Positions 9,240-61,303 of a stretch of 64,000 nt of DNA are shown piece by piece; the stretch's first letter is position 1; the number at the start of each line of letters is the position of its first letter. This DNA is from Pedosphaera parvula Ellin514 (GTDB lineage: Bacteria; Verrucomicrobiota; Verrucomicrobiia; Limisphaerales; Pedosphaeraceae), in NCBI RefSeq assembly GCF_000172555.1, contig NZ_ABOX02000003.1, forward strand, positions 62,001-126,000. Reading direction: 5' to 3'. Below the pieces are notes generated by a model. That model was not told the DNA's origin. It saw only the letters and a program-made list of their open reading frames with translations, and searched no databases. Both the position numbers and the translations under genes were made by a program.

Positions 9240-12200
9240 TTAAGCAGGCAAGCGCTCCGAGGTAGCTCTTAAACAGCTGCGAAGCTCCCCGGCAAGCTGG
9301 CTCACATTTGGTTCCGTAAAGATGCTCCCATGAGAACCGGAAATGATCCTCACATCAACACCACCCAGACTAAATTCATCCCAGCCAAGCGAGCGGTCAA
9401 AGGAACAAAGTAACGGCTGCCTGCGTGTCCTAAACAAGGTTATGCGGCCAACATAAGGTTTTGTGACGTATTCCTGAAAGGCCCGAAGGTGAATCTGCCA
9501 CAGATTTAATTCGTTCTCTGGTATTTGCTCGGTATTAATGACCCCTTCCAGGTCAAAATGCGACCGTCCCATCCGCTTTGGTTTAATTAAATTTAAAATT
9601 CTTCGTCGAATAACCCTGGCCTTCCGTTCGAAGAGATTGCGGCGGATTTCGGGTTTAAGCCTGCAAAAATCTTCCAACCCATAATAAAGATTAAGCAGGA
9701 ATCCCCTGTAAAACTTTGCCCGTCTCCATGGCGCTTTGGTGTATGAAGTATTGATGGGCATACTCTCGAACAGCGCCAGGAACGCAACCTCTTCTCCCAT
9801 CCGGGATAGCTGCCGCGCCATTTCGAAGCTGACATTTCCTCCAAAACAGTAGCCGCCAAGATAATAGGGGCCTCGAGGTTGCAACGTTCGAACCTCCTCC
9901 ACGTACCGGCTGGCCATCACTTCGATACTTTCCAGCTCTGCCATTCCTCTCATACCTGGTGATTCAATCCCATAGATGGGTTGATCATCAGTAAAGCATG
10001 CTCCTAAATTGGCATAGCCCCAAAGAATGCCTCCACCTGCTCCGTGAACCAGGAACAATGGAGGCTTGGAACCACCATCCTTAATTGCCACCAGCAAGGA
10101 TCTGGAGGCGGACAATTCTTTTTCACGAATGGCATTGGCCAACTGCGCGATGGTTGGAGTTTCAAACAGTATGGTAAGCGGAAGCCTCTTTCCGAACACT
10201 TTTTCAATTCTCGCAAATAATCGGACTGCCAGCAACGAGTGGCCTCCCAATTCAAAAAATTTGTCGTGAACTCCGATGGGGCGAATACCCAGGAGCTCCT
10301 CCCAGATACCCGCCAGTTGCTCCTCTGCAGAATCCCTGGGAGCCAGATACTTATGGTCGAGCGCAGGCCTGGTGCCCTCCGGATCAGGCAGGGCCAACCG
10401 ATTTACCTTTCCGCTGGCAGTAAGTGGGAGAGTTTCCAGAAATACGTAAGCGGACGGCATCATATATTCCGGCAACTTATCTTTTAAATGCGACCGAAGC
10501 GCTTCGGAAGTCGGCTTTGATTTCCCTTTTGGCACAACGTAAGCCACCAGCTGCTTCTCCGTGGTCGAGATTTTGCGCGCCACCACCACACAATCCCTTA
10601 CGGAATCATCAGCGGCGATGGCGGCTTCAATTTCTCCCAGTTCAATGCGAAATCCGCGGATTTTGACCATGGAATCAGTCCGGCCAAGGAATTCCAGATT
10701 TCCGTCAGAAAGATATCGGACAGTATCTCCCGTATGATAAAGTTTTGATCCTGTTTGAATTTCAAATGGATTGTCGATGAATCTCTCGGCAGTTAACTCA
10801 TTTCGTTGTAGATACTCCAACGCCAGACCGTCTCCACCTGTGTAGAGCTGTCCGTATACTCCGATTGGGACCGGCCGCAAATTACAATCCAAAACATAAC
10901 AAGTGGTGTTGGAAACTGGTTTTCCAATCGGGATGGAGCGATCTGCCGGCACCCGATGTGGTATGGCATGATAGCAGGTGAACGTCGTATTTTCTGTCGG
11001 GCCATACCCATTGATCAACTGGCAGTCCTCAAGAATTTCAAGGGCCTTTTCAACATGCGGCACAGAAAGGACATCCCCACCCGCCAGCAACTGGCGGACG
11101 TTCTTTAATCTTTCAACCTGCTCCTCCACCATTTGATGAAACAATCCGGCCGTGAGCCACAAAATTGTGATCCGCTGTTTTTCGATAAAACTGCCTAGAT
11201 CAGATAACGAGGAAGGAATGGGAGGAAAAATCACCAGCCGTGCGCCATTCAACAGTGCACCCCAAATCTCGAAAGTGGAAGCATCAAAAGAAACTGGCGC
11301 CAATTGAAGGAAAACATTGTTTCCGGTCAGCGAGGCATAATTTGTCGCCTTCACCAACCGAACTACTCCACGATTGGGAACGCAAACACCTTTGGGACGT
11401 CCAGTCGATCCGGAAGTGAAGCAGACGTAGGCCACACTCTCAGGTCCACAAGAGGAAATTGGACGCTCTCCACTTTGCTCACTGACAGCTTTCCACTCCT
11501 TGTCCAAACAAATGGCTTTGAGGATATCGTGACCTGGTTCGGATTTCTTTGTTTGTCTCGGCAGGGCTTCGCGCAGTCTGGATTCGGTCAGGAGTACCCG
11601 GATCTCTGCATCCTCCATCATCAATGCCAATCTCTCCTTGGGATAAGTAGGATCCAGGGAAACATAACCGCCTCCGGCCTTCAAAATTGCCAGCAAGCCA
11701 ACAATCATTTCAAACGACCGTTCCAAACAGAGTCCAACCAACTCGCCCGACTGCACCCCCGACCTGATCAGGTAATGCGCCAATTGGTTCGATTGTCGAT
11801 TAAGCTGCCGGTATGACAGGCTTTTGCCTTCAAAGACTAATGCCACTGCATCGGGACTTGCAGAGGCTTGCTCCTCAAATAATTCTGCTATGGTTTTATT
11901 CTTTGGATAATCCGTTCGCGTCTGGTTCCATTCCACCAGCAATCGGTAGCGCTCCCCGGCCGTTAATATCGGCAAATCGGAAATGCGCTGATTAGGATTG
12001 GAAATAATGCCTTCCAGCAGAACTCGGTAATGCTCAAGCAGGCGATCAATTGTGGCATCGTCAAAAAGATCCGTTTTGTATTCCACAGCCAAAACCAACC
12101 CCTCCTCCGATTCCGTTATGGATAATGTGAGGTCGCACCTGGCCGCTCCTTCTTCAATCGGCAGGAACTTTAACTCCAGCCCTGAAAGCTTCAGTTTCTG

Positions 12201-13154
12201 CACCGGATCATTTTGAACCTGAAACATGACTTGAAACAAGGGATTATAGGTAAGACTTCGTTCCGGCTTTAGTTCCTCAACCAGTTTCTCGAAAGGAGCC
12301 TCCTTGTGAGCGAGTGCTTCAAAAAATGTTTCTCGAACTCGTGTCAGCAGTTCCCTGAAAGTCGGCGCTCCGGAAACATCGGTCCGCAGGACGAGGGTAT
12401 TTACGAACAAACCAATCAGCCCTTCGATGGCGGTCTGATCGCGATTTGCCACGGGACTTCCCACCACGATATCCTCCAACCCGGTGTACCGCTGCAGCAG
12501 AACCTTATAAGCCGTCAGCAACAGGAGAAACAAAGTTGTTTCCTCAGTTTGCGCCCGCTTGCGTATGGAATCAGAAAACTTCTCCGACCATTGGATTCTG
12601 CGAACCGCTCCAGCATGAGAAAGCATTTTTGGACGTGGACGATCTGTCGGCAGTTCGAGCATCGGCAAAGGGTTTCTCAATTTTGTCCGCCAATAAGCCA
12701 ACTCTTTTTCCAGACGTTCACCCTGCAACCGTCTTCTCTGCCAGCCCGCATAATTGCCATATTGAACTGGCAACTCAGCTAAAGGGGATTCTGCACCTTG
12801 AACCCGGCAGGAATATAATTTTCCCAGTTCAACGTAAAGCAGTTCCATTGACCAGCCATCTGAGATGATGTGGTGCATCATCAGCAGCAGCACATGATCG
12901 GAGGAACTCAAGCCTAGCAGCTTTGCTCGCAACAGCGGATCTTTGGTCAGATCGAATGGAACCTTTGTCTCGGCCCTGCACAGACGATTCAGGGTTTGTT
13001 CCTGATTCGCTGGTTCCACCTCTCCCAAGTCAATTGTTTCCAACTTTGCATAGAAAGGCGCACAGACCAAGGCCTTGGGATGACCGTCCACCGAAACGAA
13101 ATTTGTTCGCAGACTTTCATGCCGGCCCACAATTTCATTCAGACTCCACTCCAA
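9240..13154 (-). CDS. Single-module nonribosomal peptide synthetase (C-A-PCP-TE)
   Basis: A large cytosolic synthetase with one complete module. Numbering from the TTG at 13154: condensation domain about 1-400 with MMHHIISDGW (active His motif 94-100); adenylation domain about 410-900 with FTSGSTGRPKG, GYGPTE and YHTGDTVRY; carrier domain with LGGHSLLAVR (phosphopantetheine Ser973); thioesterase about 1025-1300 with GGYCFGG, so the nucleophile at 1103 is Cys rather than Ser. By alignment to GrsA the specificity residues read DAFWLGGTFK, one residue from the classical valine code. Coding similarity clearly continues upstream of 13154 (see next entry). No phosphopantetheinyl transferase, MbtH protein or second module is nearby. 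The product is unknown; an acylated or peptidyl valine is a guess. Confidence 0.93.
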   Translation of the reverse strand: MEWSLNEIVGRHESLRTNFVSVDGHPKALVCAPFYAKLETIDLGEVEPANQEQTLNRLCRAETKVPFDLTKDPLLRAKLLGLSSSDHVLLLMMHHIISDGWSMELLYVELGKLYSCRVQGAESPLAELPVQYGNYAGWQRRRLQGERLEKELAYWRTKLRNPLPMLELPTDRPRPKMLSHAGAVRRIQWSEKFSDSIRKRAQTEETTLFLLLLTAYKVLLQRYTGLEDIVVGSPVANRDQTAIEGLIGLFVNTLVLRTDVSGAPTFRELLTRVRETFFEALAHKEAPFEKLVEELKPERSLTYNPLFQVMFQVQNDPVQKLKLSGLELKFLPIEEGAARCDLTLSITESEEGLVLAVEYKTDLFDDATIDRLLEHYRVLLEGIISNPNQRISDLPILTAGERYRLLVEWNQTRTDYPKNKTIAELFEEQASASPDAVALVFEGKSLSYRQLNRQSNQLAHYLIRSGVQSGELVGLCLERSFEMIVGLLAILKAGGGYVSLDPTYPKERLALMMEDAEIRVLLTESRLREALPRQTKKSEPGHDILKAICLDKEWKAVSEQSGERPISSCGPESVAYVCFTSGSTGRPKGVCVPNRGVVRLVKATNYASLTGNNVFLQLAPVSFDASTFEIWGALLNGARLVIFPPIPSSLSDLGSFIEKQRITILWLTAGLFHQMVEEQVERLKNVRQLLAGGDVLSVPHVEKALEILEDCQLINGYGPTENTTFTCYHAIPHRVPADRSIPIGKPVSNTTCYVLDCNLRPVPIGVYGQLYTGGDGLALEYLQRNELTAERFIDNPFEIQTGSKLYHTGDTVRYLSDGNLEFLGRTDSMVKIRGFRIELGEIEAAIAADDSVRDCVVVARKISTTEKQLVAYVVPKGKSKPTSEALRSHLKDKLPEYMMPSAYVFLETLPLTASGKVNRLALPDPEGTRPALDHKYLAPRDSAEEQLAGIWEELLGIRPIGVHDKFFELGGHSLLAVRLFARIEKVFGKRLPLTILFETPTIAQLANAIREKELSASRSLLVAIKDGGSKPPLFLVHGAGGGILWGYANLGACFTDDQPIYGIESPGMRGMAELESIEVMASRYVEEVRTLQPRGPYYLGGYCFGGNVSFEMARQLSRMGEEVAFLALFESMPINTSYTKAPWRRAKFYRGFLLNLYYGLEDFCRLKPEIRRNLFERKARVIRRRILNLIKPKRMGRSHFDLEGVINTEQIPENELNLWQIHLRAFQEYVTKPYVGRITLFRTRRQPLLCSFDRSLGWDEFSLGGVDVRIISGSHGSIFTEPNVSQLAGELRSCLRATSERLPA

Positions 13155-29054: not shown

Positions 29055-29519
29055 TCAAGTTACGCAATTCTCCAAAATCTCAGGCTTTGCACAGATTCTC
29101 CAGTAATCGATGGTGAGACGCATCATTCCGGTAAATTCCTCAATCGCAGTTGGTTTGACCATGTACGCGTTCGCTCCCAACCGATAAGCCCGCTTGATGT
29201 CATCCGGTTCTGAAGAGCAAGTCATGACAATGGTGGGAATAACAGCGCAATCAGGATGCTTCTTCAACCACTCAAGCACGCCGAAGCCGTCGCGCAACGG
29301 CATTTTGAGGTCAAGAAAGATGGTGGCTGGAAAGGGGTAAGTCTTGCGATCATTGTAAGGACTATCGGCGCGCAAGTATTTAATGACCTCTTCACCATTC
29401 GGCACTATGTGAATTGGGCCTTCAATGCCATTTTTGCGTAACGCCATCTTCAGCAAAACCACTTCCTGCGGATTATCCTCCGCTATCAAAATAGGCTCAG
29501 TCTGAATTGTTCCAACCAT
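29055..29519 (-). CDS. Stand-alone response regulator receiver (array member 1)
   Basis: A single receiver domain of 154 residues without output domain, of the Rcp1/CheY-like group usually driven by phytochrome or PAS-type kinases. Intact phosphorylation site: Glu14/Asp15, Asp70 (IFLDLKMP), Thr100 (VMTCSS), Lys122 (YMVKPT). It shares with its neighbours the inserted segment before beta-3 (DSPYNDRKTYPFPA) and the C-terminal helix with DYW. Last gene of five on the same strand, though 342 bp separates it from the previous one. Confidence 0.93.
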   Translation of the reverse strand: MVGTIQTEPILIAEDNPQEVVLLKMALRKNGIEGPIHIVPNGEEVIKYLRADSPYNDRKTYPFPATIFLDLKMPLRDGFGVLEWLKKHPDCAVIPTIVMTCSSEPDDIKRAYRLGANAYMVKPTAIEEFTGMMRLTIDYWRICAKPEILENCVT

Positions 29520-29861
29520 CAGTATTATAATTCATCCATCGCACACTATACGCAATTGGCAACCATTCGGATTCATTGGACTGTTCCCGACGAAAGTGAT
29601 GCCTCGGGCCGTGAGGTATGGGTGAGACGTGGCAGGTTGCGCTCCAAACCGGGTTGGCCATGGTCAAAAGAGAGCGGTTGAACGCATGCATGGCCGGTTG
29701 GAGATGAAGCAGAAACTAATTAAGGGAGCTGATTCTGGATTGAGCTTCCCGCTCCTGTTCACACCAAACCACTGATTCTGGCTTTTCCGCACGATATGGA
29801 GAATTTCAATTGGAATCATCCCCACGTGGTCGCTGCGCTCCATCTGCATGTGCCGAAAAAG
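29520..29861. other. 342-bp gap inside the receiver array
   Basis: No gene supported. The stretch at 29690-29735 (GGTTGGAGATG … AACTAATTAAG … CTGATTCT) weakly resembles the short 3' region of the fourth receiver gene around 31262-31300. This could reflect duplication of gene-plus-flank units, but the match is too short to be sure. The promoter of receiver 1 probably lies in the part near 29520. Confidence 0.25.
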
Positions 29862-30407
29862 TTACGGCGTCGCTGGGGGCTCGAAGTCCGGCCAATCCGG
29901 CTTGATGTAAAAGAAGGATGCTCCGCGAGTATCAGCGGACGGTTTGCCAGGATTGGGTACAGAAGCTGAGAAATCAGCGATCAGGTTGTGTGCGACCCAG
30001 AAGCTGTTCATGTCGCGAAGCGTCTTGGCCATTTCCTCAACATCGCCGCTCTTGCTGATAAAGGAGTTGGCCCCCAGTCGATAGAGCTCGGCAATATCCT
30101 TGCCATCTCGCGATCCGGTCAGAACCACAATCAGCAGCTTTTTGAACTCCTTTTGCTCTCGAATCCATTTTACCAGCGCCTTGCCGGGAATGGCCGGGAG
30201 AGTAAGGTCTACAAACACGCAGCTAGGAAAAGGAAAGAGCTCGCGATCACGGTAGGGCCCGCTGCCATAAAGATAATGCAAGGCAGTAGGGAAATCGGGT
30301 GCCAAATGCAAACCGGCTTGGGGATAGACCCTGGCTATTGCCTGCTTGAAGAGCAAATAGTCTTCAGCATTGTCTTCAACGAGCAATATTGTAGGCTGCA
30401 TCTGCAT
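29862..30407 (-). CDS. Stand-alone response regulator receiver (array member 2)
   Basis: A 181-residue receiver-only protein. Active-site residues are present: Glu11/Asp12 (LLVEDNAED), Asp67 (VFVDLTLP), Thr97 (VVLTGSR) and Lys119 (FISKSGD). Compared with its neighbours it has a longer C-terminal tail of about 40 residues after the receiver (SVPNPGKPSADTRG … DWPDFEPP), probably flexible. Same family-specific insertion (GPYRDRELFPFPS). No kinase, HPt or output partner lies in the window next to it. Confidence 0.92.
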   Translation of the reverse strand: MQMQPTILLVEDNAEDYLLFKQAIARVYPQAGLHLAPDFPTALHYLYGSGPYRDRELFPFPSCVFVDLTLPAIPGKALVKWIREQKEFKKLLIVVLTGSRDGKDIAELYRLGANSFISKSGDVEEMAKTLRDMNSFWVAHNLIADFSASVPNPGKPSADTRGASFFYIKPDWPDFEPPATP

Positions 30408-30579
30408 CGAATCAGGAACTGCCTTTCTGTAATGTGTTCGTTGGGTTCAGCAACAACATCAGGAAAACTACGTCCGCTTAATGCTTAATAGCAAGGTTAA
30501 CTTACTCAGGCTTGGCACGGTCGTTTTGAGATTCATGGGTGCACTACTGTCCTTGGAATAAAAACATCCCTCCGAAAGG

Positions 30580-31152
30580 TCATATGCCGGAAGGTTGGAA
30601 ACCAGTGACCTCTAAGGACTTCTGCGCCAGGACCAAAAGGCTCTTCGCCAGCGGAATAACTTGCCGACGAGAAGGCTCATCATGGTTTGAACCTCCCCGC
30701 TCATCGCTTTGCGGCGCCTGAAGCTGTTGATTCAAGCTCAACCAGTATTTAGCGGTTGTCCCAAGAACATTATCCAGATCCTCACCGTTTGAGGGTTTGA
30801 TCAGGTACGCATTCGCACCGAGTTTGTAGGCGTGGTTCAGATCGAATTCCATGCGCGAGCCACTTAGGATCACGACTGGCAATGCCAACATTGAATGTTG
30901 CTTTCGGATCCATTGCAGCACACCAAAGCCGGTAACGACCGGAAGGGTCAGATCTAAAAAGATAAGCGAAGGAAAGGGATACTTGCGCCGATCGGCATAC
31001 TTGCCCTTGCCGTCGAGATAGGCAATTGCCTCGTCACCATCGGAAACAACCTGGAGTGCTTTCGAAAGGCCGATTTTCTTCATCGCCTGATGCATGAAGA
31101 GCACGTCCGACTCATTGTCTTCTACATAAAGAATGATTTGAGATAATTGCAT
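30580..31152 (-). CDS. Stand-alone response regulator receiver (array member 3)
   Basis: A 190-residue receiver-only protein with Glu11/Asp12 (LYVEDNESD), Asp67 (IFLDLTLP), Ser97 in the Thr/Ser switch position and Lys119 (LIKPSNG). The conserved insertion KGKYADRRKYPFPS is nearly identical to that of member 4, which suggests these two arose by recent duplication. The 60-residue C-terminal tail (PQSDERGGSN … SLLVLAQKSLEVTGFQPS) is not similar to those of the neighbours. Separated from member 2 by 172 bp. Confidence 0.92.
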   Translation of the reverse strand: MQLSQIILYVEDNESDVLFMHQAMKKIGLSKALQVVSDGDEAIAYLDGKGKYADRRKYPFPSLIFLDLTLPVVTGFGVLQWIRKQHSMLALPVVILSGSRMEFDLNHAYKLGANAYLIKPSNGEDLDNVLGTTAKYWLSLNQQLQAPQSDERGGSNHDEPSRRQVIPLAKSLLVLAQKSLEVTGFQPSGI

Positions 31153-31281
31153 ATCGAAGTATTAAACAGAACCAGCTAATCGCTAAGTGTCAAGTCCAGA
31201 TGCTGCTCTTTGAGTTGGTTTTAAGGAAAAGTTTGTGGATTTTTCCGCACTTGGGGAATATGCAAGGCGGCTGGAGATGGA

Positions 31282-31794
31282 TTAGTTTCTCTGATTCTTT
31301 TCAAGCCCGGGCGGAGGAACTTCGAGGCCGGCCGGGATCTTTCCCTCAGTGACATTAAACCTCAACCAGAAGTCAATCACGCGGCGAACTTGGGACTCGA
31401 AGGCTTTCGGGTCGCTGGCTTTCACAATGTAGGAGTTTACTCCAATGTTATAAGCCTCCTGAATGTCCGACGACATTTCCCAACTGGAAAAGATAACGAT
31501 GGGTATCTTGCGTAAATTTTTTTGAAAACGAATCCACTGCACCAGGTCGCGCGCAACGCGTCCTCCCAGCCTGGTTTCCAGCACAATAAGTGCTGGCAAA
31601 GGAAACAGGTCCCGGTCGGCGTATTTGCCTCTGCCTGACAGATAAGCAATAACCGCATCGCCATCACCAACCGTTATCAGGTTTTGGGTGAAGCCGTAGC
31701 GCTCGAAAGCACGACGAACGAGAACTTGATCCGATTCTTTTGAATCAGCGTATAATACTAAACGCATAACCCTCAGTCTGTGTGTGGCTTCCAT
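31282..31794 (-). CDS. Degenerate receiver protein with Glu at the phospho-acceptor site (array member 4)
   Basis: A 170-residue receiver-like protein. At the phospho-acceptor position the neighbours have LDLTLP or LDVKLP, but this protein has VLETRLGG, so Asp is replaced by Glu73. The acidic pair is reduced to Asp17-Ser18 (LYADSKESD against LYVEDNESD in member 3), and the switch position is Ser103/104. Lys125 is kept (YIVKASD). Such proteins cannot be phosphorylated normally; Glu often mimics the phosphorylated state. The fold otherwise looks intact and the reading frame is undamaged, so it is probably functional. A start at 31767 would shorten it by 9 residues. Confidence 0.88.
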   Translation of the reverse strand: MEATHRLRVMRLVLYADSKESDQVLVRRAFERYGFTQNLITVGDGDAVIAYLSGRGKYADRDLFPLPALIVLETRLGGRVARDLVQWIRFQKNLRKIPIVIFSSWEMSSDIQEAYNIGVNSYIVKASDPKAFESQVRRVIDFWLRFNVTEGKIPAGLEVPPPGLEKNQRN

Positions 31795-31891
31795 TTATTC
31801 ACTCAAAAATCAAACAATGTCAAGCTCGCAACCAAACCGCATGTCTCGACACATATAATGCCTGCTGAACACATTATCTTCACTTGTCCGC

Positions 31892-32326
31892 CTATCTTTC
31901 AGGAAGTTTTTGGTTCACGTCGAACCAGTATTTTAACAGGAGTTGCAGCGATTCCCGGAATTTCCCCATGTCGCCCGTTTTCACCAGATACGAGTTAGCC
32001 CCCAAACTTAGGGCTCTCAAAATATCATCCCGTCGGTCTGAGGATGTAAGCATGATAACAGGCATGGCGGTAAACTGCATTTGCTGCCGTATCCATTTGA
32101 CGACCTCATGGCCATCCACTCTCGGCAACTTAACATCAAGCAAAACGAGGTCGGGGACCTGGGAATCCTTGGTATTAGCCGTGGGCAGAACTTTCGTAAG
32201 GTGGTGAAGGGCTTGTTCACCATCCGACACTATCTCCATCGCAACTGGTTGAGGTGTGTCTTTGATTGCCATCTGCAGCAACAGCACATCATCTTCCCTA
32301 TCCTCAACCAACAAAATTCTTTTCAT
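31892..32326 (-). CDS. Stand-alone response regulator receiver (array member 5)
   Basis: A 144-residue receiver-only protein and the first gene of the array in transcription order. Active site is complete: Glu8/Asp9 (LLVEDREDD), Asp64 (VLLDVKLP), Thr94 (IMLTSSD) and Lys116 (YLVKTGD). It is the shortest member, lacks a C-terminal tail, and its pre-beta-3 insertion (TANTKDSQVPD) differs from the aromatic-rich one of members 1-4. It ends 97 bp before member 4. The divergent ankyrin gene begins 213 bp away. Confidence 0.93.
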   Translation of the reverse strand: MKRILLVEDREDDVLLLQMAIKDTPQPVAMEIVSDGEQALHHLTKVLPTANTKDSQVPDLVLLDVKLPRVDGHEVVKWIRQQMQFTAMPVIMLTSSDRRDDILRALSLGANSYLVKTGDMGKFRESLQLLLKYWFDVNQKLPER

Positions 32327-33700: not shown

Positions 33701-33787
33701 ATTATTTGCATCTGCTCTGAACGGAATACCCCAAAACCTGACAATTACTGACACACCTGCGAGTTTGGTTTGGTGTCCCGCTATTCC

Positions 33788-34555
33788 ATGATCGATCTAA
33801 CTGGTAAAGTTGTGCTAATCACGGGCGCGGGTTCCGGGATCGGAGCTGCCATGGCCGAAGCCTTCGCAGTAGCTGGCGCCACACTTCTGATCGCCGATAT
33901 AAATGTCCCTGCTGGCGAACAGATCGTTACAACCCTGAACTCATCGGGAGGAACAGCCTCATTTATCCCGCTCGATGTGGCCAACGAAGAGGTGTGCAAC
34001 CAAGTCTCCAAAAAGGTGCTTGAGACACATGGCCAGCTTGACGTGCTCATCAACAATGCGGGCGTCGGTTCCGTTGGCACCATTTTACAAACAACCGGCG
34101 TCGAGCTTGATCGCCTCTATTCAGTCAACGTTCGCGGCGTCTTCAATCTCACCAAAGCTTTTCTGCCGTCCATGTTGGACCGGAAGTATGGCGTGATCAT
34201 AAACATGGCTTCGATTGGCGGCATCGTCGGCATTCGTGACCGTCTTGCCTACTGCACAACCAAGTTCGCCGTGGTGGGTATGACCAAAAGTATGGCCATG
34301 GACCATTCACATCAGGGCATTCGCATAAATTGTATCTGCCCGGGTCGGGTCGAAACTCCCTTCGTCAAAGCCCGCATCGCGGAGTACCCCAACCCGGAAA
34401 AAGCCTACCAGGAGATGTCTTCCACTCAACTCACGGGCAAAATGTTGCGCCCGGACGAAGTTGCCAGTGCCGCTGTTTATCTGGCGAGTGATTCCGCTGC
34501 CAGCGTCACCGGCACTGCATTTATTATCGATGGCGGTTGGAGCGCTGGTAAATAA
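33788..34555 (+). CDS. SDR family oxidoreductase
   Basis: A 255-residue classical short-chain dehydrogenase/reductase. It has the NAD(P)-binding TGAGSGIG at residues about 12-19, LINNAGVG, catalytic Ser (INMASIGG) and YCTTK (Tyr/Lys pair), and ends with FIIDGGWSAGK. The acidic residue after beta-2 (IADIN) suggests NAD(H) preference. Substrate unknown; relatives oxidise sugars or reduce 3-oxo compounds. ATG at 33788 chosen because the conserved part begins MIDLTGKVVLITG; an upstream GTG adds six residues. Confidence 0.92.
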   Translation: MIDLTGKVVLITGAGSGIGAAMAEAFAVAGATLLIADINVPAGEQIVTTLNSSGGTASFIPLDVANEEVCNQVSKKVLETHGQLDVLINNAGVGSVGTILQTTGVELDRLYSVNVRGVFNLTKAFLPSMLDRKYGVIINMASIGGIVGIRDRLAYCTTKFAVVGMTKSMAMDHSHQGIRINCICPGRVETPFVKARIAEYPNPEKAYQEMSSTQLTGKMLRPDEVASAAVYLASDSAASVTGTAFIIDGGWSAGK

Positions 34556-34693
34556 ATGCTCTTCCAAATTCAATAAAATCTCATTCTCAGGCGTCGGAGC
34601 CTGTATTCGAGAATTTGAAATGAAACAGGGTTGGTTTTTGACAAAATAAGTGCAGCGCTCAGACCAGGATTTGGTAGAATAACACAGCTTTTT

Positions 34694-35989
34694 ATGATGT
34701 GGTTTGCACAACGTCCCCTGGGACAGGTTCTTTCAAGGTTTTTGATCGCAGGCATTTTGTTTGTCAGTTGCTTAACTGGCAGAGCCGACTTCCAGGGCTC
34801 CACGCATATGATGCCTTTCGATGAGGGGACAATTAATTATAATAAGGTTCAACCCTCTGGACCGGTCTTTCGGCTGCAACAAAGTTTGGACAAAGGAGAG
34901 GCAAAACTAAAATATGATCCTGAGTTTGGCTATCTTCCTGCCGTTCTTGATGCCTTGAAAATCCCCCGTTCCTCGCAAATGTTGGTCTTTTCAAAAACTT
35001 CGTTTCAGCGTGAACGTATTTCCCCCAAAACTCCGCGCGCACTGTTCTTCAATGATGATGTCTACGTCGGATTCATCCCCGGATCTCCCATGCTGGAAAT
35101 CTCCATGGCGGACTCAAAACTGGGCGGTGTCTTTTTCACCTTGAATCAAAGCGAGGCTGGCAAGCCCAGATTCGTGCGCAACGATCAATGCCTTGAATGC
35201 CATGCCTCCTCAAAAAGCATGGGTGTGCCGGGCCACCTGCTCCGCTCCTTTGCCACCGATGAATCGGGTGTTGTCGATTTAAGCAATGGCACCTCGGAAG
35301 TGGATGACACAACTCCCTTTTCTGAACGCTGGGGCGGTTGGTACGTCACTGGCACGCATGGCAAACAAATTCATCGCGGCAACCTCATCGGCAAGGAAGC
35401 ATTTGAGCGCCAGGCGAAAGAACCTAATTATCTGGGCAACTTAACCAGTCTCGCGCAATTCATCGAGACCACCAGCTATCCAAAACCCACCAGCGATATT
35501 GTCGCCTTGATGGTGTTGGAGCATCAGGTTCACATGCATAATTTCATCACCCGCCTCAATTTCGAAGCCACCATCGCCCTCCAAACTTATGGTCACCTGC
35601 GGTATCTGAAGACCATTGAAAAGGCGTTTCTGAAAACACTCCTGTTTACGGAGGAAGTTCCCCTTAAGGATGCAGTCAAAGGCAGTTCCGACTTTAGCAA
35701 GGATTTTGAAAACCTTGGCCCCAAAGATCATCAAGGACGTTCATTGCGTCAGTTCGACTTGCAAACAAGGTTGTTCAAGTATCCGTGCAGTTTCCTGATT
35801 TACTCCGAATCCTTTGAAAATCTTCCTGACAAGATGAAACAGGAGCTTTATTTGCAGCTCCACGACATCCTGACCGGTAAGGATCCAGACCCGGATTTTC
35901 AAACTCTGTCCGCCCCAACCCGCCAGGCGATTCTGGAGATCCTGATCGAAACCAAACCAGGACTGCCGGATTATTGGAAAAAGAGCTGA
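34694..35989 (+). CDS. Secreted CxxCH (c-type haem) protein of unknown function
   Basis: A 431-residue exported protein. The N terminus has a hydrophobic signal (FLIAGILFVSCLTGRA). A single haem-binding motif, CLECH, occurs near residue 165 (NDQCLECHASS). The region around it (TPRALFFNDDVYVGFIPGSP, GGVFFTLNQ) is well structured, and a helical C-terminal half follows (EHQVHMHNFITRLNFEATIAL). This looks like a periplasmic monohaem protein, perhaps an electron-transfer or redox-sensing subunit. I cannot assign a pathway. Followed after 75 bp by the PhoPQ-related gene. Confidence 0.82.
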   Translation: MMWFAQRPLGQVLSRFLIAGILFVSCLTGRADFQGSTHMMPFDEGTINYNKVQPSGPVFRLQQSLDKGEAKLKYDPEFGYLPAVLDALKIPRSSQMLVFSKTSFQRERISPKTPRALFFNDDVYVGFIPGSPMLEISMADSKLGGVFFTLNQSEAGKPRFVRNDQCLECHASSKSMGVPGHLLRSFATDESGVVDLSNGTSEVDDTTPFSERWGGWYVTGTHGKQIHRGNLIGKEAFERQAKEPNYLGNLTSLAQFIETTSYPKPTSDIVALMVLEHQVHMHNFITRLNFEATIALQTYGHLRYLKTIEKAFLKTLLFTEEVPLKDAVKGSSDFSKDFENLGPKDHQGRSLRQFDLQTRLFKYPCSFLIYSESFENLPDKMKQELYLQLHDILTGKDPDPDFQTLSAPTRQAILEILIETKPGLPDYWKKS

Positions 35990-36064
35990 TTTTCATCAAA
36001 GGCCTTGTTTCTTTCGCCTGCTCGCTGTCTTGCTTTTTCATGCTCGATGTTCGACGCTCATGAT

Positions 36065-37402
36065 ATGCCATTATCAATCCAACGTTTTCCTTATCGGCTG
36101 CTGCTTCTGGTCGCCCTGCTCCATTCCTCCTTTTTGGCACCTGTGCGCGGAGGTGCTTTGGAGGACTATGTCGGCCAGGCGGACGATTCTTACTCATGGA
36201 AATTGATCAACAAGCAGGAAAAGGATGGGGTCACAATTGCGCACATCGACCTCGTTTCGCAAAAGTGGCGGGATACAGTTTGGACTCACAAATTGGTGGT
36301 GGTACGCCCAAAAACTGTTAAGTCCCCTGACATTGGACTGTTGTTCATTACCGGTAATGGCAATGGAGATCGCCAAATACCAGTTCTGCAGATGCTCGCT
36401 GAAAGAGCCGGAGCCATCACCGCCGTGATTACCTCCGTTCCCAATCAACCTCTTTATGGCGGCAAGAGTGAGGATGCCTTGATTGCTTACTCCTTTTCCA
36501 AGTATCTGGAAACGGGAGATAAAAGCTGGCCGCTGCTCTTCCCAATGGTGAAAAGCGCCGCCCGTGGAATGGATGCTGTCCAGGCTTTTTCGAAACAGGA
36601 ATTCAACCAGAAAATGGAACGCTTCGTCGTCACCGGCGCCAGCAAACGTGGTTGGACCACCTGGTTGACGGCTGCAGTGGATAAACGAGTCGTTGCCATC
36701 GCTCCCATGGTCATTGATATGCTAAACATGAAAGCCCAGACCGAATGGCAAAGACAGGTCTACGGAACCGAGAGCGAGCAAATTAATGATTATAAAGATG
36801 CCGATCTCCTCTCTCACATGAATGAACCGCCAATGCGCGAACTGGCCAAATGGGTCGATCCCTACAGTTACCGCTCTCGTTACAACATGCCAAAACTGCT
36901 TTTGCTTGGCACGAATGATCCTTACTGGACAGTGGATTCATTGAGACATTATTGGAATGACCTGCCCGGCCCAAAACTGATCTACCAAACACCTAACGCC
37001 GGGCATGATCTCAATGGCGGTAAGGAAGCCATGCAAACCCTGGCAGCATTTTATCAAATGATTGCCGACCATCAAACTCTCCCGCAAATGAACTGGAATA
37101 TTTCCTATCGAACCAATGATACGGCCAGCATCACCGTGACGGTGGATCAACCGGTTAAATCCGTCCAACTCTGGACGGCGGTTTCAACCAATCGGGATTT
37201 TCGGAAAGATCGATGGTCCAACCATCAGTTGAAAACAGTCACAACCAGTGGCGGGACTGAGGCAACCATTGAGCGCCCGAAGACTGGTTATGAAGCTTTT
37301 CTGGTGGAAGCGGAACTGACTTCATCCAGCGGCCAGACCTATAAACTTTCCACCGAAGCGCGCGTATTGCCGGACACGCAACCAAAAACATCAGCCCCTT
37401 AA
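36065..37402 (+). CDS. PhoPQ-activated pathogenicity-related (PqaA-type) alpha/beta-hydrolase
   Basis: A 445-residue secreted protein of the PhoPQ_related family. Signal peptide from MPLSIQRFPYRLLLLVALL, cleaved before GGALEDYV. The alpha/beta-hydrolase core shows the nucleophile motif VTGASKRGWTTW (Ser), a downstream Asp (LLLLGTNDPYWTVDS) and His (PNAGHDLNGG), consistent with a serine hydrolase. The C-terminal ~110 residues form a beta domain. In Salmonella a relative is linked to peptide resistance, but in this environment the role and substrate are unknown. Confidence 0.87.
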   Translation: MPLSIQRFPYRLLLLVALLHSSFLAPVRGGALEDYVGQADDSYSWKLINKQEKDGVTIAHIDLVSQKWRDTVWTHKLVVVRPKTVKSPDIGLLFITGNGNGDRQIPVLQMLAERAGAITAVITSVPNQPLYGGKSEDALIAYSFSKYLETGDKSWPLLFPMVKSAARGMDAVQAFSKQEFNQKMERFVVTGASKRGWTTWLTAAVDKRVVAIAPMVIDMLNMKAQTEWQRQVYGTESEQINDYKDADLLSHMNEPPMRELAKWVDPYSYRSRYNMPKLLLLGTNDPYWTVDSLRHYWNDLPGPKLIYQTPNAGHDLNGGKEAMQTLAAFYQMIADHQTLPQMNWNISYRTNDTASITVTVDQPVKSVQLWTAVSTNRDFRKDRWSNHQLKTVTTSGGTEATIERPKTGYEAFLVEAELTSSSGQTYKLSTEARVLPDTQPKTSAP

Positions 37403-37466
37403 ACTTCCACCCTTCCCAAGGCGGGACATTGAGCGAACGGTCGAAACCCATTCAAGCTGTTTAGCT

Positions 37467-38060
37467 TCATTGTCTCCAACAATAAAAGAACCACACCGGC
37501 AGGACACGCGAAAGCATAAAACTCCGCTGCACTTTGCCGAAAATCCTTTCCAAACTCGATAGCACTCGTCGCGAATACTGGTAAACCAGAAACGCGCCCT
37601 TCGGTTGCAACACCGAATATGTTCTCTGCACGATTTCATCCCTCATGGAAGGAGGCATTGTGCTGAAAGGAATTCCCGAGATGACATAATCTGCCTGCGG
37701 GTGTCCCAACTCTTCGAGCACGGATTGCACCTCTGCGGCAGAACCTTCCACCACCCGCAAACGCGCATCCTTGAAGCTCTCTTTAAGATATTCAACAAAA
37801 TCATGATTCATCTCTATCACCACCAGAGTTGCTTCAGGATGCATTCGCAGGAGTATCTCCCTGGTAATGGTTCCCACACCGGGTCCATACTCGACGATCA
37901 CCCGTGCCGAATTCCAGTCCACCCTTTTTAATAGTTGCTCAATGAGCGAACGCGGACTCGGTATGGGGGAACCCAACATTTTGGGATGTTTAAAAAAATT
38001 GCTGGCAAACAACAGCACCTGATCACCTGGCGATTTAACTTCTCTCACACTTTTCTCCAC
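37467..38060 (-). CDS. Class I SAM-dependent methyltransferase, phospholipid/rRNA adenine methylase-like
   Basis: A 197-residue methyltransferase related to the KsgA/PmtA group. Motif I is VEYGPGVGTITREIL, the acidic loop is VVIEMNHDFVEYL, and motif IV is ISGIPFSTMP, in the place of NIPY in rRNA dimethylases. The N-terminal part (FASNFFKHPKMLGSPIPSP) matches proteins annotated as phospholipid N-methyltransferase. Methylation of phosphatidylethanolamine is a fair guess; rRNA methylation is less likely because the C-terminal RNA-binding domain is missing. Confidence 0.78.
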   Translation of the reverse strand: MEKSVREVKSPGDQVLLFASNFFKHPKMLGSPIPSPRSLIEQLLKRVDWNSARVIVEYGPGVGTITREILLRMHPEATLVVIEMNHDFVEYLKESFKDARLRVVEGSAAEVQSVLEELGHPQADYVISGIPFSTMPPSMRDEIVQRTYSVLQPKGAFLVYQYSRRVLSSLERIFGKVQRSFMLSRVLPVWFFYCWRQ

Positions 38061-48551: not shown

Positions 48552-49619
<1,068 letters not shown>

Positions 49620-49655
49620 TTAAAACCCGACCGAGCGTTTTGCGCGGTCTTTCAA

Positions 49656-51248
49656 TTATTGCAAATTCGCCGCTTGGGGTGTGATGCGCAAGGAGTTAAA
49701 TTCGGCCGTCGCATTCGGACTGCCTCCGACTGTCAGTGCCACCCGCACACTCCGATCCCAAGGAGGCAGGAAACTGCCTTGCAGTTTCTCTCCGACTGGA
49801 ATCCACTTCTTACCGTCCGCACTTGCGGCAAACTGAAACTCCGCTCCGTTTTTTGCGCTATAACGTAGATACAGCTTCGAGCACGATGGCGGGTCCATGA
49901 TAGCCAGCGACTGAGTCTTTCCTCGCATGCTTCTCCACAACACCAGCTTGCCGTTCATTGCTGACAATCCAATCGCATTGGCCATATCACCAAATGCTGA
50001 CAATCCTGCCATCGCTCCCCGGTTCAAATCTCCGAGGTCCAATACAGTCTCCGCGACATAATCCGCAGCTGTGGTGGAACGGGCTAATACCGAACCGACC
50101 ACGTTCGTTCCGCGCGCGGGGTTGGCAACCAAGATCAGTTCTCCGCTCCTTACTTTATAAGTCGGCTCGTTATCTTGAGGCCATTGATAACCTGTGTTCA
50201 GTTTGTAACCTTTAAAATCATCCGCAAAACTCACCTCGGTCCTCTGCTGGACAACCTCATAGGGAGACACCGCCCTGGCACTGGGTCCCTTGCCGTTATT
50301 TATGGTCGGCCAATCGTTCGTGCCAAATTTCACTTCATCCAACAACGCTTCACGACCGGTGAAAACAGAGCCGATCGTGGAATACCCGTGATACAGCAGC
50401 CAATAACGACCACGTTCATCAGCAACGATGCTTCCGTGTCCGGGACACTTCCAAGTCACATTGCCAGCCAGGATGGGATTTGCAGGATTCTTTTCCCACG
50501 GTCCCAACAACGAATGAGACCTGGCCACCCCTAAAGCATAATCGCATCCGGTTCCGCAGCAGCCGCTCCCGGAATAAAACAAGTAAAACCAATCACCACG
50601 GCGCAGAATAAATGGCCCTTCGACTAACGCCCCTTCCCAGGGAGAAGTGTTCCTGATCAGCTCCTTCTTTTCGCCTTCCAACCTGGTGCCATCCGCATTT
50701 AGCTTCTGCGCCCAGATGACAGTGCTGACATGACGGCTATTCCCGTCCTCCTTCCAAACCAAATACCGCTCTCCATGCTCATCAGTGACGGGCACTGGAT
50801 CAATCGAACCGTCCTCCTGTGCCACCATGGGACCATGATCTGTGTAAGGTCCGGAAGGTTTGTCAGCCGTTGCAACCGCAATCGCGAGCGGTCCACCCTT
50901 CTGACGGCCAACATAGTAGACGTAATATTTGCCCTTGTACTCCGAAATTTCCGGAGCCCAGAAATTGCCCACGGCCCACTCGGGTCGATGCGCGAACACT
51001 GGCCCGGCATCATTCCAGTTCACCAGGTCGGTTGAATGCAATAGTGGAAATTGCGGTCCCCACTCGGAGGAAGTAGCTGTCGCCCAATATTCCTTGCCGA
51101 CGCGAATTACCGATGGATCTGGATGATCTCCCGCAATCACGGGGTTCTGGTAAAGAACCTCGGCATTTACCTGTGAAACCATTCCAATCCAGGCCGAGAG
51201 GAGAATAATGACGCCAAATGACCACCGGTGAAGCGCGCTCAATTTCAT
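49656..51248 (-). CDS. Secreted glycoside hydrolase family 43 protein
   Basis: A 530-residue exported enzyme with N-terminal signal (IILLSAWIGMVSQVNAE). The five-bladed propeller begins NPVIAGDHPDPSVI, the catalytic base Asp motif of GH43. Later parts (EGPFILRRGDWFYLFYSG, CPGHGSIVADE) carry the expected Glu and His. Residues about 340-530 form a beta-sandwich accessory domain, resembling DUF1349/laminin-like modules. GH43 enzymes cleave arabinose, xylose or galactose side chains; galactofuranose or arabinofuranose fits the adjacent transporter. Within the operon, 21 bp after the binding-protein gene. Confidence 0.9.
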   Translation of the reverse strand: MKLSALHRWSFGVIILLSAWIGMVSQVNAEVLYQNPVIAGDHPDPSVIRVGKEYWATATSSEWGPQFPLLHSTDLVNWNDAGPVFAHRPEWAVGNFWAPEISEYKGKYYVYYVGRQKGGPLAIAVATADKPSGPYTDHGPMVAQEDGSIDPVPVTDEHGERYLVWKEDGNSRHVSTVIWAQKLNADGTRLEGEKKELIRNTSPWEGALVEGPFILRRGDWFYLFYSGSGCCGTGCDYALGVARSHSLLGPWEKNPANPILAGNVTWKCPGHGSIVADERGRYWLLYHGYSTIGSVFTGREALLDEVKFGTNDWPTINNGKGPSARAVSPYEVVQQRTEVSFADDFKGYKLNTGYQWPQDNEPTYKVRSGELILVANPARGTNVVGSVLARSTTAADYVAETVLDLGDLNRGAMAGLSAFGDMANAIGLSAMNGKLVLWRSMRGKTQSLAIMDPPSCSKLYLRYSAKNGAEFQFAASADGKKWIPVGEKLQGSFLPPWDRSVRVALTVGGSPNATAEFNSLRITPQAANLQ

Positions 51249-51269
51249 GCAGGAAAAAGAAAGTAAATT

Positions 51270-52238
51270 TTAATACTGGCGCGAAGCAATCACATCCTTG
51301 GCACCGGATTGATCGTAGGTCTTGTCCGGAACGATGGTCTTCTTCGGCAATTTCTCACCTTGCTTGGCTTTCTCCACCGCATCAAAAGCGAGCGGCCCGA
51401 GCAATGGATTGCATTCCACGGTGCAGTTTAACTTGCTATTCACCATCGCTTCGAAAGCGCCTTTCACACCGTCCACCGACACCACCACCACGTCCGTGCC
51501 TGGCTTCTTGCCTGCTTCTTCAAGAGCCTGGATGGCTCCCAATGCCATGTCATCGTTATGCGCGTAAACGGCGGTCACCTCGTTGCCATACTTTTTCAGC
51601 AACGCTTCCATTACTTCCTTCCCGCCGGAACGACGAAAGTCCCCGCTTTGGGAAGCGATGATTTTCATTTCAGGATGCTCCTTGATTCCCTCTTCGAAAC
51701 CTTTCTTCCGGTCAATCGCTGGAGCCGCACCAGGCGTGCCTTGGAGTTCGACAATGTTGGCTTTGCCATTCACTTTCTTGGCGAGCCATTCCGCCGCCAT
51801 CCTGCCTTCACTCACAAAGTCCGATGCAATCAATGTTGCATAGAGCGAGTCATCGGAAACCTTGATTCCACGATCAACCAGCACCACCGGAATCTTGGAT
51901 CGCTTTGCTTCACGCAAAACCGGTTCCCATCCTGTTTCCACAACGGGTGCAATGATGATGGCATCCACTCCTTGAGCAATAAAACCGCGAACCGCCTTGA
52001 TTTGGTTCTCCTGCTTTCCTTGTGCGTCAGAGAACTTCAGGTTCACGTTGCGCTTGGCCGCTTCGTTCTTGATGGAATCGGTTTCTGCAGTGCGCCAGGC
52101 GCTCTCCGCGCCGACCTGCGCAAATCCGACCGTTAATTGTTTGGCGATGACAGCCGACTGAAAACCCGCGGTCAACATGAGCGAAAAAGCCGCCACGCCG
52201 ATCGAGCGAAGCCCTGATTTTATGAATGAATTCTTCAT
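51270..52238 (-). CDS. ytfQ: Sugar ABC transporter substrate-binding protein (YtfQ-like)
   Basis: A 322-residue periplasmic binding protein with signal peptide (ending SAVIA before KQLTVGF). It follows E. coli YtfQ, the galactofuranose binder, closely: TVGFAQVGAESAWRTAE, QENQIKAVRGFIAQGVDAI, PVVETGWEPVLREAK, ELQGTPGAAPAIDRKKGF and VYAHNDDMALGAIQAL. The residues around these motifs contact sugar in the family, so galactofuranose or a related furanose is a good prediction. Genes for the permeases and ATPase precede it. Confidence 0.92.
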   Translation of the reverse strand: MKNSFIKSGLRSIGVAAFSLMLTAGFQSAVIAKQLTVGFAQVGAESAWRTAETDSIKNEAAKRNVNLKFSDAQGKQENQIKAVRGFIAQGVDAIIIAPVVETGWEPVLREAKRSKIPVVLVDRGIKVSDDSLYATLIASDFVSEGRMAAEWLAKKVNGKANIVELQGTPGAAPAIDRKKGFEEGIKEHPEMKIIASQSGDFRRSGGKEVMEALLKKYGNEVTAVYAHNDDMALGAIQALEEAGKKPGTDVVVVSVDGVKGAFEAMVNSKLNCTVECNPLLGPLAFDAVEKAKQGEKLPKKTIVPDKTYDQSGAKDVIASRQY

Positions 52239-52266
52239 GAATTATTTGATTTTGATTGGTGATAGT

Positions 52267-53238
52267 TTACCTGGCCAGCGCCGAGGTGCGAGTCAGAAAT
52301 CGTTGAAAAAGAATGAACGCCAACAGCAACCCACCGATGGCAATGCGCAGCCAGTAGGAATTCAAACGTCCGTCAAAAGTCAGTGCCGTATTAATAGTGC
52401 CAAAGATAAGCACACCCGCCAGCGTGCCAAGTTGCGACCCCACTCCCCCGGTCAGCAGCGTGCCGCCAATGACCACCGAGGCAATCACATCAAGCTCGAA
52501 CCCCACACCGAGAGTCGGATTTCCGGAACCCGTGAAGATGGTCATCACCGCTCCGGCCAATGCTGAACAAAACCCGCTGATTGCATAAACCGCGACTTTG
52601 GTCGTTCCAATCGGCACACCCATGAGTCGGGCTGAGGGCTCACTGCCTCCCAAGGCATAAACATTTCTTCCGTAAGGGGTGTAATGAGTCACCAAAATCC
52701 CAACAAGGAAAATGGCGAGAAAAATAAGCGCCGGCACAGATAAACTGGCCTTTCCACCGAGCGGCACCAGGAAGTCGGTCAGTTTATTGTAAAGCGGATT
52801 CTCTATTCCCAAGGATTCCTTGCTGATAACAAATCCCATTCCGCGCGCCAAAAACATTCCTCCCAATGTAACCAAAAACGGCGGCAGATCGTAGCGGTTG
52901 ATCAGAAATCCCATGAACGCTCCCAATGCAGTTCCGACCATCAACGCCAGCCCAATCGCTATCATGGGATTCACACCCTTCTGTTGTACCAGGGTCGCGA
53001 TAAAAACTGTTGAGAACGCCAGGACGGACCCGACGGACAAATCGATCCCTCCCGATAAAATCACCAAGGTCATCCCCACAGCCGCAATCCCGAGTGATGC
53101 ATTGTCTCCGAACAAATTTCCGACTACCCGCCCTGAAAAGAACCCTTCATACATTACGGAAGCGGTCGCGAACAAAACGACGAGTATCAGAATCGTCGCC
53201 GCCAGCGGCAGGTGTGGTGATTGCCAAAGTTTTCTCAA
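52267..53238 (-). CDS. yjfF: Sugar ABC transporter permease (YjfF-like)
   Basis: A 323-residue integral membrane protein of the BPD_transp_2 group with 8-10 hydrophobic segments. The family signature SGGIDLSVGSVLAFS lies near 60-75, and the C-terminal VIGGTLLTGGVGSQLGTLAGVLI motif contacts the ATPase. Its start overlaps the stop of the second permease gene by 4 bp (ATGA). Corresponds in order to yjfF of the E. coli galactofuranose importer. Confidence 0.9.
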   Translation of the reverse strand: MRKLWQSPHLPLAATILILVVLFATASVMYEGFFSGRVVGNLFGDNASLGIAAVGMTLVILSGGIDLSVGSVLAFSTVFIATLVQQKGVNPMIAIGLALMVGTALGAFMGFLINRYDLPPFLVTLGGMFLARGMGFVISKESLGIENPLYNKLTDFLVPLGGKASLSVPALIFLAIFLVGILVTHYTPYGRNVYALGGSEPSARLMGVPIGTTKVAVYAISGFCSALAGAVMTIFTGSGNPTLGVGFELDVIASVVIGGTLLTGGVGSQLGTLAGVLIFGTINTALTFDGRLNSYWLRIAIGGLLLAFILFQRFLTRTSALAR

Positions 53239-60322: not shown

Positions 60323-61303
60323 CTATTCCATCGGATATTTCAATCCCCACTGCGCGCGTAAAGCATCCATTGTCTTCATGATGGCAAGTGTTTCGTCCAG
60401 CGACATGACCGCACACTCCGTCTTGCCATTACGCATACAGTCCATGAACGCCTCCGCTTCAAATTGGTAGCCATTGCCAGTGTATGGAAATTCCAGAAGT
60501 TCCTCCCCGCCATTGTCCAGCGCCACCGTCATGTCTGAACCTTTCCACCATGATTTGTGCAAGGTGATTTTGCCTTCGGTCCCCACGAGTGAAGCTTCAT
60601 GAAAAGTATTGGCTGTGATCAAGGTCTGTAACAGGGCGAGTTGCCCTTTCGCATGCTTGAAAATCATTGCCGCCTTTTCATCGACTCCCGTCGTCCCGAT
60701 CTCAACCAGTCCGGTCACCTGGACAGGTGGCCCAAAAATCATATAGGCCAGCGACACCGGGTAAACCCCCAAATCCAGCAACGCACCGCCGCCCAGCGCC
60801 GGATCAAACAATCGACCTCCCCGCCGATCTGCCTTGAAACCAAAGTCCGCCGTCAACACCTCCACCTCACCGATAACTCCTTCGGCCAGCAATTCCCGCA
60901 ACCGCACCATCAACGGCAAAAAACGCGTCCACATCGCTTCCATCAATAGAATCTTTTTCTCCCGGGCAAAGTGAATCACTTGCTCTGCTTGAACCGCGTT
61001 AATCGTAAACGGCTTCTCACACAGGACTGGCTTTCCCGCCTCCAATGCCAGCAAAATGTTTTCAGCGTGCAGCGAATGGGGAGTAGCCACATAAACCGCA
61101 TCCACCTTGGAATCGCTCACCAGGCTTTCATAGCTTGCGTGGCGATAGGGGACATTGGATTCCACCGCAAAAGCATCCGCCCTCGCCTGCGTGCGGGAGC
61201 CGATCGCGACCAACTCCGCATCCGGCAGTGTGTGTAATCCTGCCGCAAACTTTTTGGCGATGGCTCCAGTCCCGAGAATTCCCCAACGAATCTTGTCTCC
61301 CAT
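60323..61303 (-). CDS. Gfo/Idh/MocA family oxidoreductase
   Basis: A 326-residue NAD(P)-dependent dehydrogenase. Rossmann motif GILGTGAIAKKFAAGL at the N terminus, VYVATPHSLH in the middle, and the family EKP motif (VLCEKPFTIN), whose Lys takes part in catalysis. The C-terminal alpha/beta domain follows (FDPALGGGALLDLGVYPVS). These enzymes oxidise or reduce sugars and inositols; the exact substrate is unknown. Plausibly associated with the sugar utilisation genes to its left, but not part of the same operon. Confidence 0.92.
   Translation of the reverse strand: MGDKIRWGILGTGAIAKKFAAGLHTLPDAELVAIGSRTQARADAFAVESNVPYRHASYESLVSDSKVDAVYVATPHSLHAENILLALEAGKPVLCEKPFTINAVQAEQVIHFAREKKILLMEAMWTRFLPLMVRLRELLAEGVIGEVEVLTADFGFKADRRGGRLFDPALGGGALLDLGVYPVSLAYMIFGPPVQVTGLVEIGTTGVDEKAAMIFKHAKGQLALLQTLITANTFHEASLVGTEGKITLHKSWWKGSDMTVALDNGGEELLEFPYTGNGYQFEAEAFMDCMRNGKTECAVMSLDETLAIMKTMDALRAQWGLKYPME

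Follow-up and report, generated by a model that had tools for sequence, protein, structure and literature searches.

A conserved Glu-type pseudo-receiver in a retained trio of single-domain receiver genes of Pedosphaera parvula

Overview

Member 4 of an array of five receiver genes in the window (the whole 64,000-nucleotide stretch analysed) is best read as a conserved Glu-type pseudo-receiver, or aspartate-less receiver (ALR), on an Rcp1-like single-domain fold. What is new is that it is retained as a trio with two true receivers, members 3 and 2, in the sister genome, the only other genome of the genus among those examined; the trio is the part worth following, a Glu-type pseudo-receiver in itself being ordinary in kind. 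The accessible sections of a 2025 review (PMC12632262) describe the on/off switching of bacterial pseudo-receivers as a major unknown. Member 4 offers a clean test case, as it is small and has no DNA-binding output domain to complicate assays, and its Asp-bearing neighbours, members 3 and 2, provide natural built-in controls. A literature search found no paper on the member 4 gene.

The receiver array and the active site of member 4

The five single-domain receivers are arranged head to tail on the minus strand, from 29055 to 32326. The features are listed by window position.

29055..29519, minus strand: member 1, true receiver that belongs to the array but lies outside the conserved trio
29862..30407, minus strand: member 2, third trio gene, a true receiver whose C-terminal tail is conserved; orthologue 80% identical
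30580..31152, minus strand: member 3, second trio gene, a true receiver whose active site is intact; orthologue 76% identical
31188..31193, minus strand: TTGACA upstream of member 3, at -41 in both genomes
31282..31794, minus strand: member 4, single-domain Glu-type pseudo-receiver of 170 aa with an intact ORF, as read from ORF, alignment, orthologue and model
31420..31422, minus strand: codon of the conserved Lys125, from the alignment
31480..31482, minus strand: codon of Trp105 (T+2), a Trp present in both orthologues and in 0/139 other collected receivers
31576..31578, minus strand: GAA codon of Glu73 at the phospho-Asp position, from the alignment; GAA in both genomes
31741..31746, minus strand: codons for Asp17 and Ser18, once the acidic (metal-binding) pair; Asp-Gln in the orthologue
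31818..31823, minus strand: TTGACA upstream of member 4, a candidate -35 element; also upstream of the orthologue
31892..32326, minus strand: member 5, true receiver that belongs to the array but lies outside the conserved trio

In the five-member alignment, the phospho-Asp site of member 4 is occupied by Glu73 and its acidic pair is Asp17-Ser18, where the other four members carry Asp and Glu-Asp, respectively, while Lys125 is invariant throughout. The original prediction had named all three features together with an intact frame, and each was borne out, the last as a 170-aa ORF on the minus strand. Member 4 also departs, at positions that the prediction did not mention, at D+1, D+4, D+8 and T+2, which are occupied by Thr, Gly77 (normally Pro), Ala81 (normally Gly) and Trp105. 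Response_reg was the sole Pfam match in each array member, with 30.0 bits for member 4 (E 6.3e-7), just below the 30.2 cut-off, and 42-70 bits for the four neighbours. Translation of member 4 may in reality start at Met10 (31765-31767), just downstream of an AGGG stretch present in both genomes, which would give a protein of 161 aa in which Glu73 is renumbered Glu64.

Since members 4 and 3 each have a TTGACA of their own, they may not form one transcript. No convincing -10 element common to both genomes was found by either TTGACA, so the promoter reading was kept as a candidate only. Over both genomes, TTGACA occurs at most 110 bases upstream of 15 of 113 receivers, whereas the density of this motif in the window itself predicts approximately 1.7%. 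The C-terminal tail of member 2 is identical between the genomes at 19 of 23 positions over the columns compared.

Predicted fold

The AlphaFold model of member 4, obtained with nine sequences (pLDDT 81.6), points to a receiver fold of the Rcp1-like single-domain type. Its closest structures are Rcp1, RcpA, RcpB and related phytochrome regulators (Z 19-21), the best matches being 1i3c, 1jlk and 1k68 (Z 21.4 for Rcp1), and the sequence search likewise placed member 4 nearest the Rcp1-type phytochrome regulators. The matches to this group (Rcp1, RcpA and RphyB; 1i3c, 1jlk, 1k68 and 4zyl) span the alpha2-beta3 segment and the C-terminal Trp. Member 4 shares with them the single-domain fold. These proteins are, however, phospho-receivers, and the RphyB Asp aligns to Glu73, whereas the intact phosphosite is missing from member 4, which has neither the phospho-Asp nor the second acid (Ser18). 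The model contains neither helix nor strand past residue 147; together with Response_reg as the only domain matched, this leaves member 4 without an OmpR-family DNA-binding domain.

Receiver survey and tree

A set of 141 distinct receivers with at least 105 aligned residues (51 from the window genome, 63 from the sister and 27 from other genomes) was drawn from 246 aligned rows after overlapping duplicates and shorter fragments were left out. The phosphosite residue was Asp in 133, Glu in three, Asn in three, Ser in one and Lys in one, and two of the three Glu-bearing receivers were member 4 and its orthologue. Within the window and sister genomes, 7 of 114 receivers (6.1%) had a non-Asp phosphosite, Glu accounting for two of the seven. 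This share is near those given in the accessible text of two publications, namely 4% for aspartate-less receivers (quoted in PMC12548384 and PMC12632262) and 6% for pseudo-receivers (PMC12632262), so owning a non-Asp receiver is ordinary. Nor was there any sign in the two genomes that pseudo-receivers are enriched in arrays: three of the seven non-Asp receivers were clustered, two of them being the orthologue pair, against 39 of 118 of all matches.

A tree of the 141 receivers was built without the phosphosite column; it rests on few columns and has many unresolved forks. Member 4 and its orthologue formed one clade (SH-aLRT 100), and the nearest rows by path all carried Asp. The Asp-to-Glu change is thus most simply placed once, before the two species parted. 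As the five array members sit in different parts of the tree, recent tandem duplication was rejected as the origin of the array.

Rcp1-like receivers are much expanded, with 52 matches in the window genome (E ≤ 0.001) and 66 in the sister (E ≤ 1e-10), and clusters of up to five occur in both. A second conserved pseudo-receiver, present as one copy per genome (L093 877-1314 and L123 871-1305; clade SH-aLRT 99), has Asn at the phosphosite and an intact acidic pair. The receiver at L137 6676-7311, in a sister-genome cluster, keeps the acidic pair in a largely replaced active site: its phosphosite is occupied by Lys, position T by Val and the Lys position by Asn.

Conservation in the orthologue

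The sister orthologue of member 4 is 57% identical, with an intact frame. The check proposed originally, conservation of Glu73, came out in favour, with Glu at the same site in this one orthologue. With 57% of all positions identical and a single comparison, Glu conservation by itself is weak evidence, and the pattern over the whole site says more. Both proteins keep Asp at DD1, Glu, Tyr122 (K-3), Lys125, Ala at D+8 and Trp at T+2, and position T (103) is Ser in member 4 and Thr in the orthologue. The second acid, an Asp in 133 of 139 other receivers, is lost in both, and this metal-binding position, DD2, drifts (Ser18 and Gln), as does D+4 in the loop (Gly and Val). Positions of metal and phosphate chemistry thus drift while switch positions (Glu, Ser/Thr, Tyr and Lys) stay, a suggestive pattern. 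Random loss of active-site residues, also looked for, is not what this one orthologue displays.

By region, identity between the orthologues is 11/16 over helix 1 and the following loop, against 57% overall, and 4/10 over helix 4, which is poorly conserved. The beta3-alpha3 loop of member 4 is remodelled, and this raises a reading in which a ligand, a redox change or a modification acts on the altered pocket (Trp105, Ala81 and Gly/Val77), with Glu73 in a structural role. In its favour, Trp105 at T+2 is unique to the orthologue pair among the 141 receivers, and the review, in its accessible sections, singles out this loop region for pseudo-receivers (PMC12632262). We nevertheless consider such an input improbable, as no ligand or partner was seen and the loop itself is only 3/7 identical between the orthologues.

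In the other six of the eight family genomes, the pair-profile search (E ≤ 1e-27) found no orthologue of member 4, the matches there being at paralogue level and far weaker than that of the orthologue. Nor was one found beyond the genus in 293 order genomes at 1e-35, with at most 12 candidates scored per genome; the sole extra-genus match (G171) carries Asp. Among 384 class genomes at 1e-36, with at most nine candidates scored per genome, the window's own genome was the sole match, so the sister evidently lay outside that sample. A search of genome contigs returned the sister locus and one distant receiver. Orthologues were likewise confined to the genus for member 2 among the 293 order genomes and for member 3 among the eight family genomes.

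Retention of the trio in changed surroundings

On one sister contig, members 4, 3 and 2 occur in the same order and on the same strand as in the window, in different surroundings: apart from an antisense shadow, only one other ORF there matches anything else in the window, with 27% identity to the gene at 60323-61303. The flanks of the window array are found on one other sister contig, with polA (80-81%), the 23779-24630 gene (77%) and the ankyrin gene (60%), and a second contig carries homologues of the four genes at 33770-38060 and of four further out (48552-53238). At this homologous locus, from polA to the ankyrin gene, the sister lacks the array and carries instead a single large gene and a lone receiver from outside the trio. 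With the trio elsewhere in the sister and the array missing here, the trio has moved in one lineage yet stayed together, leaving members 1 and 5 behind. The conserved unit is therefore probably one of three genes, not five, and the original setting of a "cluster of five" was too wide, as only members 4, 3 and 2 stay together in the sister genome.

The neighbours of the sister trio, a PilC-like (70%) and a sigma-like gene (51%), both labelled from their translations and not by family search, are matched by homologues that share a single contig in the window genome. An exact source site for the moved block is not claimed, because the genes between these homologues differ. The lone receiver that lies directly upstream of the sister polA, where the window has the array (L144 10883-11395), has Asn as the second acid and Ala at K-3. 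Elsewhere in the window, 9240-13154 encodes a single-module nonribosomal peptide synthetase with condensation, AMP-binding, carrier and thioesterase domains.

Constraint on member 4

Synonymous sites are saturated between the genomes and the NG86 estimate is undefined for member 4, so dN, codon-position identity and simulation were used and no dN/dS value is given. Maximum-likelihood dN between orthologues is 0.37 for member 4, 0.15 for member 3 and 0.12 for member 2, i.e. the member 4 protein has evolved more than twice as fast as the other two. Its identities at the three codon positions are 0.67, 0.70 and 0.40, and neutral simulation left it free of stops in 0/500 runs at 40% identity and 1/500 at 59%. 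Member 4 is under purifying selection, though less constrained than its neighbours.

This evidence bears on whether member 4 might be a relaxed paralogue, a redundant copy losing function in which Glu was kept by chance. It is the fastest-evolving gene of the trio, and at 57% identity the odds that a given residue is unchanged are roughly even. Against this, there are no stops or frameshifts despite saturated synonymous divergence, the gene has been retained with the trio in different surroundings, and switch residues are kept while catalytic ones drift; we regard relaxation as highly improbable. Decay, which the original prediction had named as an outcome that would count against it, appears unlikely given the open frames in both genomes, the codon-position bias and the near-total lack of stop-free simulations. 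That the sister keeps a Glu protein beside the same two normal partners also makes the gene look maintained.

Proposed mechanism and comparison with known systems

Loss of the Asp and of the second acid abolishes phosphotransfer in receivers in general, so the missing phospho-Asp and second metal-binding acid would remove it in member 4. Glu73 would probably contact Lys125 and Ser/Thr103 and fix an active-like shape, as proposed for CmrT of Clostridioides difficile (2QZJ); by this analogy a single active-like state is probable for member 4. Lacking an output domain, member 4 has to work through contact, presumably constant and with the true receivers encoded alongside; members 3 and 2, as retained neighbours, are the likeliest partners. 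Its most likely role would be that of a signal-independent partner in heterodimers, the effect of which, with constant contact, would be set by amount and not by signal. We infer the lack of phosphorylation, the active-like lock, the contact with members 3 and 2 and the regulation by amount. A non-phosphorylatable Rcp1-type pseudo-receiver that combines all of these is a reading to which we give about an even chance. A broader version, in which the three genes form a kinase-less tuning module of receivers, kept intact on changing genome place, and an on-like member 4 pairs with members 3 and 2 and sets their working point, seems unlikely.

Member 4 has the predicted receiver fold, a non-Asp phosphosite and loss of the second metal-pair acid, the last a common, not obligatory, pseudo-receiver trait. 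Bacterial pseudo-receivers likewise keep the first acid and the Lys, and Glu is the commonest phospho-Asp replacement in ALRs, at 26% in the accessible text of PMC4395418 and PMC12632262. Member 4 differs from them in being single-domain, Rcp1-like and retained as a block with two true receivers; the portion of the pseudo-receiver review available (PMC12632262) mentions neither Rcp1 nor the phrase "single domain". CmrT resembles it residue by residue, with Asp at DD1, a non-acidic DD2, Glu at D, Thr/Ser at T and Lys (D17, E73, S103, which is Thr in the orthologue, and K125 in member 4), no Pro at D+4 and a true receiver, CmrR, encoded alongside. In the CmrT crystal, Asp9, Glu53, Thr80 and Lys102 are hydrogen-bonded without metal or phosphate, according to the accessible part of PMC12548384. 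Differences are the extra Asp after the CmrT acidic pair (DGD) and that CmrT is an OmpR-family DNA-binding regulator in a kinase operon, whereas member 4 lacks both an output domain and a nearby kinase. A model for the proposed mechanism is the WhiI-BldM heterodimer of Streptomyces, in which an atypical receiver works by pairing, as outlined in the accessible sections of PMC12632262; WhiI and BldM, though, both directly regulate transcription, and pairing of member 4 is a proposal only.

Several findings weigh against this explanation. It draws on one orthologue, member 4 has the fastest dN, and its poorly kept helix 4 is not what one would expect of a surface that may bind conserved partners. 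Residue K+2 of the pair is Ser/Thr, unlike the CheY-activating Ala, Ile, Leu or Val listed in the accessible text of the review (PMC12632262), which counts against the active-like reading. In CmrT, E53A alone had little effect, as reported in the part of PMC12548384 available; the original term "phosphomimetic" may thus credit the wrong residue, and Glu need not be what makes the protein active. What stands of the original interpretation is that member 4 is non-canonical in a conserved way and not decaying, with Glu73, Asp17, Lys125, Tyr122 and Ser/Thr103 kept in the orthologue.

The signal-independent partner of members 3 and 2 is favoured, and its main rival is a decoy with a preserved kinase-binding face that would sequester a kinase also used by member 3 or member 2, raising the response threshold. 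Helix 1 and the following loop are the kinase docking region of receivers, and this region is comparatively well kept in member 4, although its 11/16 is not clearly above average. Phosphorylatable receivers are encoded next door, and there is a real precedent in mycobacterial systems, where a threshold is set when other receivers sequester the kinase, according to the accessible part of PMC10368727. We hold the decoy to be possible but doubtful, because the Glu, Lys, Tyr and Ser/Thr, which it does not need, are kept, and the array has no HATPase_c match closer than 6 kb. Of the 123 HATPase_c matches in the window genome, the nearest is at a distance of 6.1-8.9 kb from the individual members, and 11 of the 52 receivers of this kind in the window genome sit within 600 bases of one.
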